This document shows, one piece after another, positions 3,279-11,129 of a stretch of DNA of 64,000 bases. The stretch's first letter is position 1. Each line of letters opens with the position of its first letter. The stretch lies in the NCBI GenBank assembly GCA_040219515.1, contig JAVJSI010000013.1, positions 1 to 64,000 on the forward strand, given 5' to 3'. Both the position numbers and the translations under genes were made by a program. The stretch comes from Acidimicrobiales bacterium (GTDB lineage: Bacteria; Actinomycetota; Acidimicrobiia; Acidimicrobiales; Aldehydirespiratoraceae). The notes under the pieces were generated by a model that did not search any database, had not been told where the DNA came from, and saw only the letters and a list, made by a program, of their open reading frames with translations.

Positions 3279-3794
3279 TCAATCGCCCTCGGGGAGGATG
3301 TAGTGGCCGTCGTCGTCGGCTGCGATGTCGAGCACGGTCATGAAACGACCGTTGCCGACGGTCATGGCGCACAGGGCGGTGAGCTCGATGACCTCGACGT
3401 CGGTGAAGTGATTGCGGATCTCCTGGATGAAGGCGTCGTCGATCGAGTGGTGGTCGGTGGCGAACCGGTCGGCGAACTCGCCGGCGAGGCGTTCGCGATC
3501 GGTGAGGCCCTCGATCTCGGGTGCCTGCCCGATCGAACAGGCGATGACGTCCTGGACGCCGTCCTCGTCGAGCCCCTGGGCGGCTGCCTTGGGCGAGCGG
3601 GTGTTGAGACAGACGGGGCAGCCGTTGGCCACCGCCACGCGCAGACGCGCGATCTCGCGCACTCGTGGAGGGAGCGAGGTCTTCTCGTAGACGGCCTGGG
3701 AGTAGGCCCCCATGCCGATCGCGACGTCGGGCTGCATCATCAGCAGCCGTTCGCGCTCGAGTCCTCTGCCGTCGGGAACATCGATCCGTGCCAT
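3279..3794 (-). CDS. AhpD/carboxymuconolactone decarboxylase-like protein
   Basis: The 171-residue protein matches the AhpD-like/CMD fold: a helix with REIARLRVAVANGC, then a CPVC motif with two cysteines, then a long helical region. In AhpD peroxidases the CxxC pair is redox active and is followed by a His three residues later; here the following residues are LNTR, so that His is absent. A peroxidase or thiol-disulfide role is possible but unproven. The gene opens the operon: ATG at 3794 is preceded by TAGGCT and a 6-nt spacer with no Shine-Dalgarno site, the pattern of a leaderless transcript. Confidence 0.75.
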   Translation of the reverse strand: MARIDVPDGRGLERERLLMMQPDVAIGMGAYSQAVYEKTSLPPRVREIARLRVAVANGCPVCLNTRSPKAAAQGLDEDGVQDVIACSIGQAPEIEGLTDRERLAGEFADRFATDHHSIDDAFIQEIRNHFTDVEVIELTALCAMTVGNGRFMTVLDIAADDDGHYILPEGD

Positions 3795-3803
3795 CTGAGG
3801 AGC

Positions 3804-4544
3804 CTAGGAGCGGGTCAGCACCGCGGCCATCCAGCCATCCGATTCGATGTGGCGGTCCGTCGTTGCGCCGTAGGCGGCCGCACACCGGTCGAGCTGCGTC
3901 GGGCCGAGGATCCCTGCGACGATCAAGCGTGGGTGGGCGGGGTGCAGCTCACCGGCGATGTGCTCGTGGATGTCGATCGTCACGTTGACGACGACGAGGT
4001 CGTACGGGGTCCCGTCGCCGGGGTCGACGGAGCCGGATCTCACTGCGACCGAGTCGGCGACGCCGTTGCGGGCGACATTGGCGATCGTGGCGTCCACTGC
4101 GGCGGGATCGATGTCGACGGCGACGACCCCGGCACCGACGAGCGCGGCGGCGATCGAGAGCACCCCGGTGCCGCACCCGATGTCGAGCACCCGCTGGCCC
4201 TGGCGCACCTCGGTGCCGATGAGGTCGAGGGCCAGCCGCGTGCTCGGGTGCGACCCGCTCCCGAAGGCATGGCCGGGGTCGATCGCGATGCCGATGGAAC
4301 CGGTCGGCGGATCGAGCCACGGTGGGTGCACCGCGAAACCTCCCGCGACCTCGATGGTGAGCAGGTCACGCGCGGCGTCGAGTCCGTGGGTGTCGTCGAC
4401 GGTTTCGATCACGGCCTGCGGCGCCAGCCGGTCGCGGGCCGCGGCAGCCCGGGTTGCATCGGTGAACGCCGCCCGAAGCGCACCGTCGAGTTCCTCCACG
4501 CCGATCGCGCCGTGCTCCCAGAGTTGCGCCGACTGCGCATCCAC
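3804..4544 (-). CDS. prmA: Ribosomal protein L11 methyltransferase-like protein
   Basis: The product resembles PrmA, the SAM-dependent enzyme that trimethylates ribosomal protein L11. It has the DPGHAFGSGSHPSTR block, the SAM motif LDIGCGTGVLS, and an NVTIDIH segment where PrmA normally has an N(I/L)xA-type motif. At 246 residues it is shorter than typical PrmA. In-frame codons upstream of the GTG at 4544 encode SHFLFTVTVDRDG, which looks like the usual first strand of PrmA. No ATG, GTG or TTG is available there, but a CTG at 4586-4584 overlaps the cupin stop as CTGA and would add 14 residues. The gene is coupled to the cupin upstream. A different protein or small-molecule methyltransferase cannot be excluded. 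Confidence 0.75.
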   Translation of the reverse strand: MDAQSAQLWEHGAIGVEELDGALRAAFTDATRAAAARDRLAPQAVIETVDDTHGLDAARDLLTIEVAGGFAVHPPWLDPPTGSIGIAIDPGHAFGSGSHPSTRLALDLIGTEVRQGQRVLDIGCGTGVLSIAAALVGAGVVAVDIDPAAVDATIANVARNGVADSVAVRSGSVDPGDGTPYDLVVVNVTIDIHEHIAGELHPAHPRLIVAGILGPTQLDRCAAAYGATTDRHIESDGWMAAVLTRS

Positions 4545-4582
4545 ACCGTCGCGATCGACGGTGACCGTGAACAGGAAGTGGC

Positions 4583-5029
4583 TCAGGTGAGCACGTTGGG
4601 CCGACCGAGACCCTGGGCTTCACAGAGCGCCATGTAGGCCGCGTAGATGCCGGCGGCGTCGGTGATCGACTCGACATTGCCGTCGGCGTCGAGGTTGAGG
4701 TTGGCGCCGTAGATCTGGAACCAGACATCGGTGAGCTCGGTGTTGTCGGCGGGCACGGTGAGCGTGTGCTCGGACCCGGCCGGCTCGAACAGAAACGACC
4801 CGGCTCGGTTCACATAGGGATACTCGGCGTACTTCCAGGCGCCGGTGAGCGTGTAGCCGAACACCTGGCCCGTGTGCTTGTGCTTCTGGACCACCGTTCC
4901 CGGTTCGAAACGATTACGCACGATCCACAGCCCGAGCTCGATGTCGGCCTGGACCAGCTTGATCTCGACACCGGCACCGGTGCCGACCCACGGGATGTCG
5001 TCTTCTCCGAGATGCACTGCTTCAGTCAT
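4583..5029 (-). CDS. Cupin-domain protein (dihydroxyacetophenone dioxygenase-like)
   Basis: This 148-residue single-domain cupin has the first cupin motif in VQKHKHTGQVFGYTL (HxH near residues 50-52) and the second in SFLFEPAGSEHTLTV. The arrangement resembles ChrR-like cupins and 2,4'-dihydroxyacetophenone dioxygenase, which bind one metal ion. The substrate is not identifiable. ATG 5029 is preceded by TACGCT and a 7-nt spacer without a Shine-Dalgarno site, so it is probably a leaderless transcript start, and the prmA-like gene follows directly. Confidence 0.72.
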   Translation of the reverse strand: MTEAVHLGEDDIPWVGTGAGVEIKLVQADIELGLWIVRNRFEPGTVVQKHKHTGQVFGYTLTGAWKYAEYPYVNRAGSFLFEPAGSEHTLTVPADNTELTDVWFQIYGANLNLDADGNVESITDAAGIYAAYMALCEAQGLGRPNVLT

Positions 5030-9580: not shown

Positions 9581-9644
9581 CCGGGGTCAGACCCCCGTCC
9601 CATCTCCACCGTTTGCCCGAACTGCAACGGGGGTCTGACCCCGG
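9581..9644. repeat. REP-like inverted repeat, GGGGTCAGACCCC core
   Basis: An 18-bp perfect inverted repeat has arms at 9581-9598 and 9627-9644 around a 28-nt loop. Each arm contains the self-complementary core GGGGTCAGACCCC. It sits between the convergent ends of the hydrolase and the phosphatase-like gene, where it could also act as a two-way terminator, although no T-tract follows. A related element with the core GGTGTCAGACACC lies at 48618-48691, so this is probably one member of a dispersed family. Confidence 0.75.
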
Positions 9645-9653
9645 ATGCAACGG

Positions 9654-11129
9654 TCAGCGGAGGTAGACGTATTGGGCGTCGACCATCAGATGGTCGACGC
9701 CGGCGTCACGAAGGGGAACCGACAGGTCGACGGGTTCACCCTCGGCGGTGGTCTGCATGCCGTGGTCGGCGCACATGACGATGGCGGTGCGGTCGAGCAC
9801 CCCGCGGCGGTCGATCTCGTCGATGATCTCACCCATCCGGGCATCGGTGTCGCGGATGGCGGCGCGGCCGATCTCGCTGTGGGGGCCGCCGTAGTGGCCG
9901 ATCGAGTCGGTGAGATTCAACGTGAACCACGAGAAGCGGGGGAGCCCACCCAGGTCGCCCGACCAGCAATGGCGGGCGTCGGCCACACTGTGGGCGTCGT
10001 AGACGCTATAGCTGCGAAACTCGGGAATGCCCATGAACTCGGTGCTGCGGTGGCGGCGACGATCGTCGTCGGTGAGCGGCCCCTGCGGCTCCCGGTTGGT
10101 CATCTGGAGGTAGCTGGACCAGTCGGCGCCGCGGTCGCCGTACTCGTAGGTGGCCACCGAGATCGCGTCGGGTTCGTTGCGATGCAACGCCTCGTGGATC
10201 GTCTCGATGTCGTCGCGCAGATGATCACGAGCCGTGATCATCTGGCCGAACTCCAGCAGGTCGACGAGCTGGTCGCGGCCGCGGTCGTACCAGGTGTTGT
10301 GCAGGATCCCCGAGCGCCCGGGAAACACACCCGTGGCGGCGGCCGAATGGTTGGCCAGCGTGGCGGTGGGGAGGCTCGCGTAGGCACCGTGGCGAAACGA
10401 CGTGCCCCGCTCGATCAGCTCGGCGATACGGGGCGCCGCACCCGACGCCGCGGCCGCGTGCAGCGCCTGCGGGTTGCAGCCGTCCCAGAGGAAGAGCACC
10501 ACATGATCGGGACGGGTGTCGGGGTCGAGGACGGCGGTGCACTCGTCGCCGTCCTGCACGGCGACGCGCACCCCCGAGCGAGGTCGGCCGAGCCCGTCGA
10601 CCCCTTCGATCGGCGCACAATCGAGGAGGGCCGCGAGGGTCGGGGCGATGTCGACCGTGCGGAGATGGTCGTCGACGATGCCACGCGCGGCCACGCCGGG
10701 GCCGGCGGCGATGAAGGGCGCGCGGGCCTGGGTGGTGGCGAGCGACCCGTGCTCGCCCACGTTGCCGTGGAACCGGTGGGTCGGGGCGTGGAGCACGACC
10801 AGGTCGGGCGCGTGGGGTGAGTCGAAGTACTGCGCAACGCTGGCCATGGCGTGGGGAGTCGGATGCTCGCCGAGGAGGGCCCACGGATCATCGGTCTCTT
10901 CGTCGATGGCGGTGCGCTGATCGGTGCGCTGGTCGGCCAACGAATGAGCTCCCGACTCGGCCAGGATCTCGATCGTTCCCTCGCCGGTACGGGTGAAGTC
11001 GACGGCACCGCGCGCCGACGCGGCCCGGTAGCCGTCGGCCGTTCGGCGCAGCACGGTGTCGACTTCCTGGTCGAGGGCTGCGTCGGTGAGCACCGACTCT
11101 GCGAGGTCGCGGGTCGCCGGGTTCGTCAT
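9654..11129 (-). CDS. Alkaline-phosphatase-superfamily phosphodiesterase with permuted block order
   Basis: The 491-residue protein has the metal and nucleophile motifs of nucleotide pyrophosphatase/phosphodiesterases: VLFLWDG (metal Asp, near residue 214), LPTATLANH with the nucleophile Thr and TGVFPGRSG after it, LTDSIGHYGG, and CADHGM near residue 455. The protein ends about 35 residues after DHGM. In the known family a further His-containing block (HG...GPG...DIAPTLAALL type) follows there. Here that block, GEHGSLATTQ...APFIAAGPG...DIAPTLAALL, lies at about residues 120-165, before the metal-Asp strand. The order is therefore circularly permuted relative to the family. ATG 11129 is preceded by TAGCGT and 6 nt, a leaderless pattern. 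No signal peptide is seen, so it is probably cytoplasmic. Confidence 0.8.
   Translation of the reverse strand: MTNPATRDLAESVLTDAALDQEVDTVLRRTADGYRAASARGAVDFTRTGEGTIEILAESGAHSLADQRTDQRTAIDEETDDPWALLGEHPTPHAMASVAQYFDSPHAPDLVVLHAPTHRFHGNVGEHGSLATTQARAPFIAAGPGVAARGIVDDHLRTVDIAPTLAALLDCAPIEGVDGLGRPRSGVRVAVQDGDECTAVLDPDTRPDHVVLFLWDGCNPQALHAAAASGAAPRIAELIERGTSFRHGAYASLPTATLANHSAAATGVFPGRSGILHNTWYDRGRDQLVDLLEFGQMITARDHLRDDIETIHEALHRNEPDAISVATYEYGDRGADWSSYLQMTNREPQGPLTDDDRRRHRSTEFMGIPEFRSYSVYDAHSVADARHCWSGDLGGLPRFSWFTLNLTDSIGHYGGPHSEIGRAAIRDTDARMGEIIDEIDRRGVLDRTAIVMCADHGMQTTAEGEPVDLSVPLRDAGVDHLMVDAQYVYLR

Follow-up and report, generated by a model that had tools for sequence, protein, structure and literature searches.

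The gene examined here lies on the minus strand of a 64,000-nucleotide stretch of an Acidimicrobiales contig (the window) and encodes a 491-residue protein that is, with high confidence, a natural circular permutant of a phosphodiesterase of the alkaline-phosphatase (AP) superfamily (PF01663, NPP-like). The block order can be read as a canonical C-terminal part placed in front of a canonical N-terminal part (A and B blocks; Table 1). A permutation had been proposed in a sequence-only reading, and the proposal is upheld by a rotation scan with shuffled controls, by out-of-order matches to Xac NPP and PafA, by the conservation of block order and ligands, and by purifying selection. Both segments are homologous to the canonical protein and their order is swapped, as indicated by the rotation scan, hhalign and the order of the block matches. 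Since the whole bacterial family keeps this order together with every catalytic residue, the arrangement is read as a natural rewiring and not as a broken gene.

Gene and Motif Layout

In the translation, GEHGSL (residues 125-130), GPG (143-145) and DIAPTLAALL (160-169) are followed by VLFLWDG (211-217), LPTATLANH (253-261) and CADHGM (453-458), with 33 residues remaining after M458. The translated minus-strand ORF agrees with the motif positions named earlier and, together with the PF01663 coverage, confirms that the C-terminal His block stands at the N-terminus (H127) and is absent from the C-terminus.

PF01663 (Type I phosphodiesterase / nucleotide pyrophosphatase) matches residues 210-490 over profile positions 1-253 of 342, with 111.5 bits (E 8.5e-32) against a Pfam gathering cut-off of 23 bits; it also matches all 40 aligned family members at E 0.001 or better. 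Because the match is limited to this range, the C-terminal quarter of the profile is missing at its expected place, and no canonical-order match over the whole profile is obtained. The B block as a separate sequence covers the same 1-253 of 342 positions (E 2.5e-32). No AP-superfamily model in Pfam was matched by the A block as a single sequence, and rotation of the single sequence extends the PF01663 coverage only from 253 to 275 of 342 positions. No signal sequence was seen by eye, and the protein is presumably cytosolic.

The permuted gene is present once in its own genome, in an open frame of 494 codons. Five PF01663 matches are found there at E 0.001, three of them above the cut-off: the permuted gene, a canonical match of full length (C11, covering profile 1-341) and another that is partial (C7, covering 19-229).

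Table 1. Positions, within the window, of the gene, its blocks and the predicted active-site residues
Feature	Position	Strand	Basis or remark
Gene of the very probably circularly permuted AP-superfamily phosphodiesterase	9654..11129	-	491 aa + stop; near full-length relatives 60-83% identity
A block, residues 1-203, homologue of the canonical C-terminal part, now in front	10521..11129	-	Profile matches to AP-superfamily structures; hhalign
B block, residues 204-491, canonical N-terminal part from strand 1 to DHGM	9657..10520	-	PF01663; VIA
Linker joining old C-terminus to old N-terminus, about residues 178-203	10521..10598	-	Best rotation cuts 181-211
H127, predicted metal-1 ligand (SPAP His491), in the N-terminal block	10749..10751	-	60/60; aligned to GSHG His of Xac NPP
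D216, predicted metal-2 ligand (SPAP Asp49)	10482..10484	-	60/60
T257, predicted catalytic nucleophile (SPAP Thr89)	10359..10361	-	60/60
H261, equivalent of SPAP His93	10347..10349	-	60/60; SPAP role from PMC3145672
N278, predicted phosphate-contacting Asn (SPAP Asn110)	10296..10298	-	59/60, other His
D408, predicted metal-1 ligand (SPAP Asp300)	9906..9908	-	60/60
H412, predicted metal-1 ligand (SPAP His304)	9894..9896	-	60/60
D455-H456, predicted metal-2 ligands (SPAP Asp345, His346)	9762..9767	-	60/60 each

Correspondence of the A Block to the Canonical C-Terminus

Comparison of an A-block profile (25 members) with PDB sequences, at E values up to 10, gave 21 matches, 20 of which belong to the AP superfamily (sulfatases, LTA synthase and primase, iPGM, ENPP4 and PafA), each within the second half of its chain; the remaining match is a nanobody. 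The best E value is a modest 0.0011, and at the sequence level the likeness to the AP superfamily exceeds chance resemblance. Aligned by hhalign to the C-terminus of canonical relatives, the A block alone gives an E value of 5e-9 over residues 103-176 only (P0001 numbering); for this reason the placement of residues 1-102, which are positioned only through the rotated alignment and with gaps, is less certain.

When the family profile (40 members) is matched to the solved chains of Xac NPP and PafA, the front of the B block comes first, its end second and the A block last. Along the chain, the pieces are profile positions 212-286, 404-476 and 125-181 in Xac NPP, and 210-302, 393-469 and 136-180 in PafA. 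The third, out-of-order piece is weak by itself (3.0 and -0.2 bits in two comparisons with Xac NPP, 9.9 bits with PafA) and is absent in two of the five family-profile alignments displayed, both ENPP3. In Xac NPP it pairs the His of GEHG (H127) with the His of GSHG.

Of the loci that the A-block profile recovered in the phylum, 30 were retained: L127-L139 are permuted or four-block genes, and the remaining 17 (L140-L156) were examined for block order. In the latter group, 15 ORFs contain both blocks, and in each of them the best A-block match comes after all B-block matches in the chain. One canonical ORF, L156, has in addition a weak second A-block match (E 0.036) that falls between its B-block matches. 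L151 and L152 are without a B-block match, and one extra L146 frame has a B-block match only. Of the canonical-order loci seen, L140-L145 have the C-terminal block that matches the permuted A block most closely (E down to 2.3e-15).

Rotation Analysis of the Block Order

The 40-member alignment was cut at 36 positions, and every rotation was compared by hhalign with two canonical alignments: set 1, of six sequences, which combines three single proteins with three inner domains taken from four-block proteins, and set 2, of seven sequences from loci found with the A-block profile. The unrotated alignment scores 158.4 against each set, over 263 (set 1) and 242 (set 2) columns. A single peak appears for cuts at 181-211, the block junction, with scores of 204.8-208.3 (set 1) and 221-237 (set 2) over 386-398 columns. 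At residue 204 the alignment is nearly end-to-end, scoring 207.2 over 392 columns (set 1) and 236.8 over 390 (set 2). The score drops on both sides of the peak, to 191 and 209 at cut 166 and to 172 and 165 at cut 271. Within the B block, cutting gives scores below or close to the native one. When the A-block columns are shuffled (ten shuffles per set, cut 204), the scores are 158.2-163.2 (set 1) and 159.0-159.5 (set 2).

With HMMER, native and rotated profiles score about equally on canonical proteins, and on four-block proteins the native order scores higher; this comparison is no test of order, because HMMER sums local pieces in any order.

Predicted Structure

AlphaFold, supplied with the 40-member alignment, returns one compact domain with a pLDDT of 92.9, a pTM of 0.93 and no residue below 50, and the permuted protein is predicted to have a single-domain fold. 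In Foldseek and VIA comparisons the B block of the model matches NPPs, SPAP and PafA (VIA Z up to 18.9); residues 198-491 of the model match SPAP 31-403 by VIA, and the matches leave the permuted part uncovered. A domain-swapped oligomer, in which the A block of one chain would complete the site of another, is compatible with all sequence results and with a linker of about 26 residues; however, the single chain is modeled confidently as one domain (pTM 0.93), and we consider such swapping improbable.

Folded alone, the A block reaches a pLDDT of 81.4 and a pTM of 0.65, a lower confidence that is not a clean control because 25 rows were used and not 40. Over the His loop (residues 121-150), the 10-residue mean pLDDT is 42-58 in the A block alone vs 72-98 in the whole protein; for residues 11-60 of the lone block the corresponding means are 93-96. 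Against the PDB, the lone A block gave no match (Foldseek E 0.3 and VIA Z 3.9 at best), and no AP-superfamily chain occurs among its Foldseek or VIA matches. We read these results as a sign that the A block is a half-domain requiring its B-block partner, a reading that falls short of structural proof.

The partial folding of the lone block, together with the poor alignment of its first 100 residues to canonical C-termini, would also suit an A block that is a domain of its own, or that was joined on as a fragment from a different AP-superfamily protein, and that takes no part in completing the active site. Such an origin is very hard to reconcile with the absence of the canonical last His block from the C-terminus in 40/40 members, the presence of H127 in 60/60, a modeled His loop that is confident only with the B block present, and a nearly end-to-end collinearity after rotation; we give it very little credence. 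A second active site or an unrelated domain in the A block was likewise set aside on H127 conservation, the missing C-terminal block and the rotated collinearity.

Distribution, Conservation and Selection

Whole-genome searches for relatives were made within Actinomycetota. In the own class, 61 of 296 sampled genomes gave a match at E 1e-20, and in 57 of these a single match spans H127 to H456 in the permuted order. Four genomes depart from this: in G182 the match stops at residue 436, close to the start of a contig, in G142 it is partial, in G162 it comes in two pieces that lie on different contigs, and in G215 it is divided between two neighboring frames. A second, larger class gave matches in 36 of 197 genomes, 31 of them spanning both blocks, so that the same order, which the sequence-only reading had proposed to look for in relatives, is found in both classes. 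Across a phylum-wide sample, 14 of 396 genomes matched, with 11 permuted genes, two four-block proteins and one split copy. A contig scan reached only close relatives, five of which are Acidimicrobiia, Acidimicrobiales or Actinomycetes MAGs; a viral-contig scan and a plasmid search found no relatives in viral contigs or plasmids.

The 40-member alignment was built from the best matches, leaving out L004 (partial), L043 (split) and loci of other architecture, and the 60-member set adds 20 members from the second class. The retention of the metal and nucleophile motifs noticed at the outset holds throughout this set: H127, D216, T257, H261, D408, H412, D455 and H456 are each found in 60/60 members, and N278 in 59/60, the other having His. 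A second His block at the C-terminus is missing from all 40 aligned members, in which 2-15 residues follow Y489; homologues with a second standard block there, which would have spoken against a permutation, were not encountered among them. In comparisons with four close relatives, the A block has dN/dS values of 0.19-0.33 and the B block values of 0.11-0.17, which point to purifying selection on both halves.

An assembly artefact, a chimera or a decaying gene, for which nothing in the window gene and only a few split copies in relatives (G215, G344) could be cited, is practically dismissed by the shared order in 57/61 and 31/36 matching genomes, dN/dS well below 1 in both blocks and the 494-codon open frame in the own genome, and the earlier judgment that the gene is not decaying stands. 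The split permuted genes extend over two reading frames (G215:C1, about 1494880-1496285; G344:C81, about 3539-4725) and are either broken or misassembled.

Putative Active Site and Proposed Chemistry

In SPAP (PMC3145672), zinc 1 is bound by Asp300, His304 and His491 and zinc 2 by Asp49, Thr89, Asp345 and His346; the phosphate is touched by Asn110, and Thr89 is steadied by His93. Ligand roles in the permuted protein were assigned by motif from SPAP and by alignment to NPP (Table 1). The predicted two-metal site set of the AP superfamily (D, T, D/H, D-H, H) is complete and invariant in 60/60 sequences. Its last His ligand, residue 127, precedes the DHG motif, against the AP-superfamily rule that it follows DHG.

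In the proposed arrangement, the ancestral C-terminal part with the last metal-binding His would have become residues 1-203 and the ancestral N-terminal part residues 204-491. The linker would connect the two old ends, and the new ends would fall after the strand following DHGM. Folding of both parts into one domain would bring H127, D408 and H412 to one metal, with D216, T257, D455 and H456 binding the other. T257 would then attack the phosphoester, and the phospho-threonine intermediate would be hydrolyzed. A two-metal mechanism with a Thr nucleophile is the most likely one, because the ligand set corresponds by motif to that of SPAP. Metals and chemistry are assigned here by analogy with SPAP and NPP; on that analogy, the protein is probably a working Thr/two-metal phosphoesterase, and its substrate may be guessed, from the Pfam family, to be an NPP-like diester or pyrophosphate.

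Comparison with Known Systems

By homology and ligand set, the protein is placed on sequence grounds inside the AP superfamily and outside the canonical NPP layout. Its B block aligns by VIA with Xac NPP (2gsn, 7n1s) over 240-242 residues (Z 18.2-18.3, rmsd 2.5-2.7), and the D, T, D/H and DH motifs and the His block occur in both proteins; the His block, however, is C-terminal in NPP and N-terminal here. The best VIA Z scores, 18.9, 18.8 and 18.6 over 280-282 residues, are obtained with SPAP/PhoK (3q3q, 5xwk) and PafA (5tj3). The zinc ligands of SPAP correspond by motif to D216, T257, D408, H412, D455, H456 and H127, whereas the block order of SPAP and PafA differs from that of the permuted protein. 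The PafA equivalog NF042991 is matched with 41.9 bits, below the NCBIfam cut-off of 650. Likeness to the phosphonoacetate hydrolase PhnA (TIGR02335; 1ei6, 3szy) covers the D and T segments (residues 210-286, E 9.9e-9), but at 34.8 bits the protein is below that model's cut-off of 407.55.

A circularly permuted E. coli alkaline phosphatase was reportedly engineered by Kojima et al. in 2005, with high activity according to the title. That protein, as far as its title tells, is man-made, in contrast to the permutation described here, which would have arisen in nature and become established throughout a family. Among titles and abstract openings in the open-access literature, a body of text that leaves out most subscription papers and preprints, nothing was found on a circular permutation of natural origin in the AP superfamily.

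Gene Neighborhood and a Nearby Repeat

Neighbors were compared by an all-against-all ORF comparison around the gene in 23 loci, with Pfam applied to ten ORFs, four of which were without a family. Many ORFs in this comparison resemble shadow frames of GC-rich DNA. The window gene adjoins leuA and an alpha/beta hydrolase (both named by eye); in other clades the neighbors are RNA polymerase alpha (one group) or UvrD helicase, ABC1 kinase, ThiF and a zincin-like peptidase (another). Neighbors of this housekeeping kind, differing by clade, are uninformative about function.

The stretch that separates the phosphodiesterase gene from the convergent hydrolase gene contains GGGGTCTGACCCC twice, in inverted orientation (9583-9595 and 9630-9642), and the pair is predicted to form a very stable hairpin (-56.6 kcal/mol, z -5.6). 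The own genome contains 92 exact copies (47 forward, 45 reverse) vs 0 for the reversed control. Since two of three examined pairs lying about 1 kb apart enclose a Y1_Tnp transposase, the third enclosing another ORF, these repeats look like REP elements with their RAYT-type transposase.

Four-Block Relatives and Origin of the Permutation

Four open frames of 1181-1389 codons, in G296 (L047), G370 (L048), G305 (L046) and G559 (L123), have a four-block order: outer A, inner B, inner A and outer B (C-half, N-half, C-half, N-half). The inner part is a complete PF01663 domain that starts at profile position 2 or 3 and reaches 340 or 341 of 342. The outer A block carries the conserved His, the outer B block carries the D, T, N, D/H and DH residues, all invariant in 4/4, and no His block stands behind the outer B. 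Apart from two pieces with E above 1, A-block matches in these proteins are confined to the outer and inner A. The arrangement resembles a permuted domain that encloses a canonical one. Judged by eye, all four proteins start with a signal-like sequence and are apparently secreted, and L048 and L123 finish with an LPxTG-like tail, which together with the signal-like start suggests a location at the cell wall.

In a quick tree of B blocks, subject to long-branch warnings, SH-aLRT support is 96 for grouping the outer halves with the 40 single-domain proteins and also 96 for grouping the inner halves with canonical proteins. In the A-block tree, under the same warnings, the outer halves again join the singles (90), although they branch from within these with support 0, and canonical and inner A blocks are intermixed. 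The simplest reading is one permutation origin, with the canonical domain either nested in, or lost from, the linker. The permutation itself would probably have begun as an in-frame tandem duplication, after which the outer halves were lost.

As to the relation between the two architectures, the single-domain permuted family may have derived from four-block proteins by losing the nested canonical domain, as opposed to a later insertion of that domain. The grouping of the outer halves with the singles (96 and 90 in the two trees) and of the inner B halves with canonical proteins (96) is consistent with such a loss; however, the trees are quick ones with flagged long branches, neither gives the direction of change, and the outer A halves fall inside the singles on a support-0 branch. 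We hold the loss to be possible, on the doubtful side.

Implications

Whether these proteins represent the first natural circular permutation in the AP superfamily together with a surviving, secreted four-block intermediate, carrying two active sites with interleaved halves, we regard as evenly balanced. Family models may annotate proteins of this kind partially, as Pfam detects the B block and overlooks the moved His block. Enzyme evolution and promiscuity have a standard model in the AP superfamily, whose termini would in this family have been moved naturally with the two-metal site kept. Natural permuted proteins, canonical relatives and nested two-domain proteins resembling the intermediate expected from permutation by duplication occur side by side; because the family offers all three, the proposed evolutionary route is testable on real sequences.
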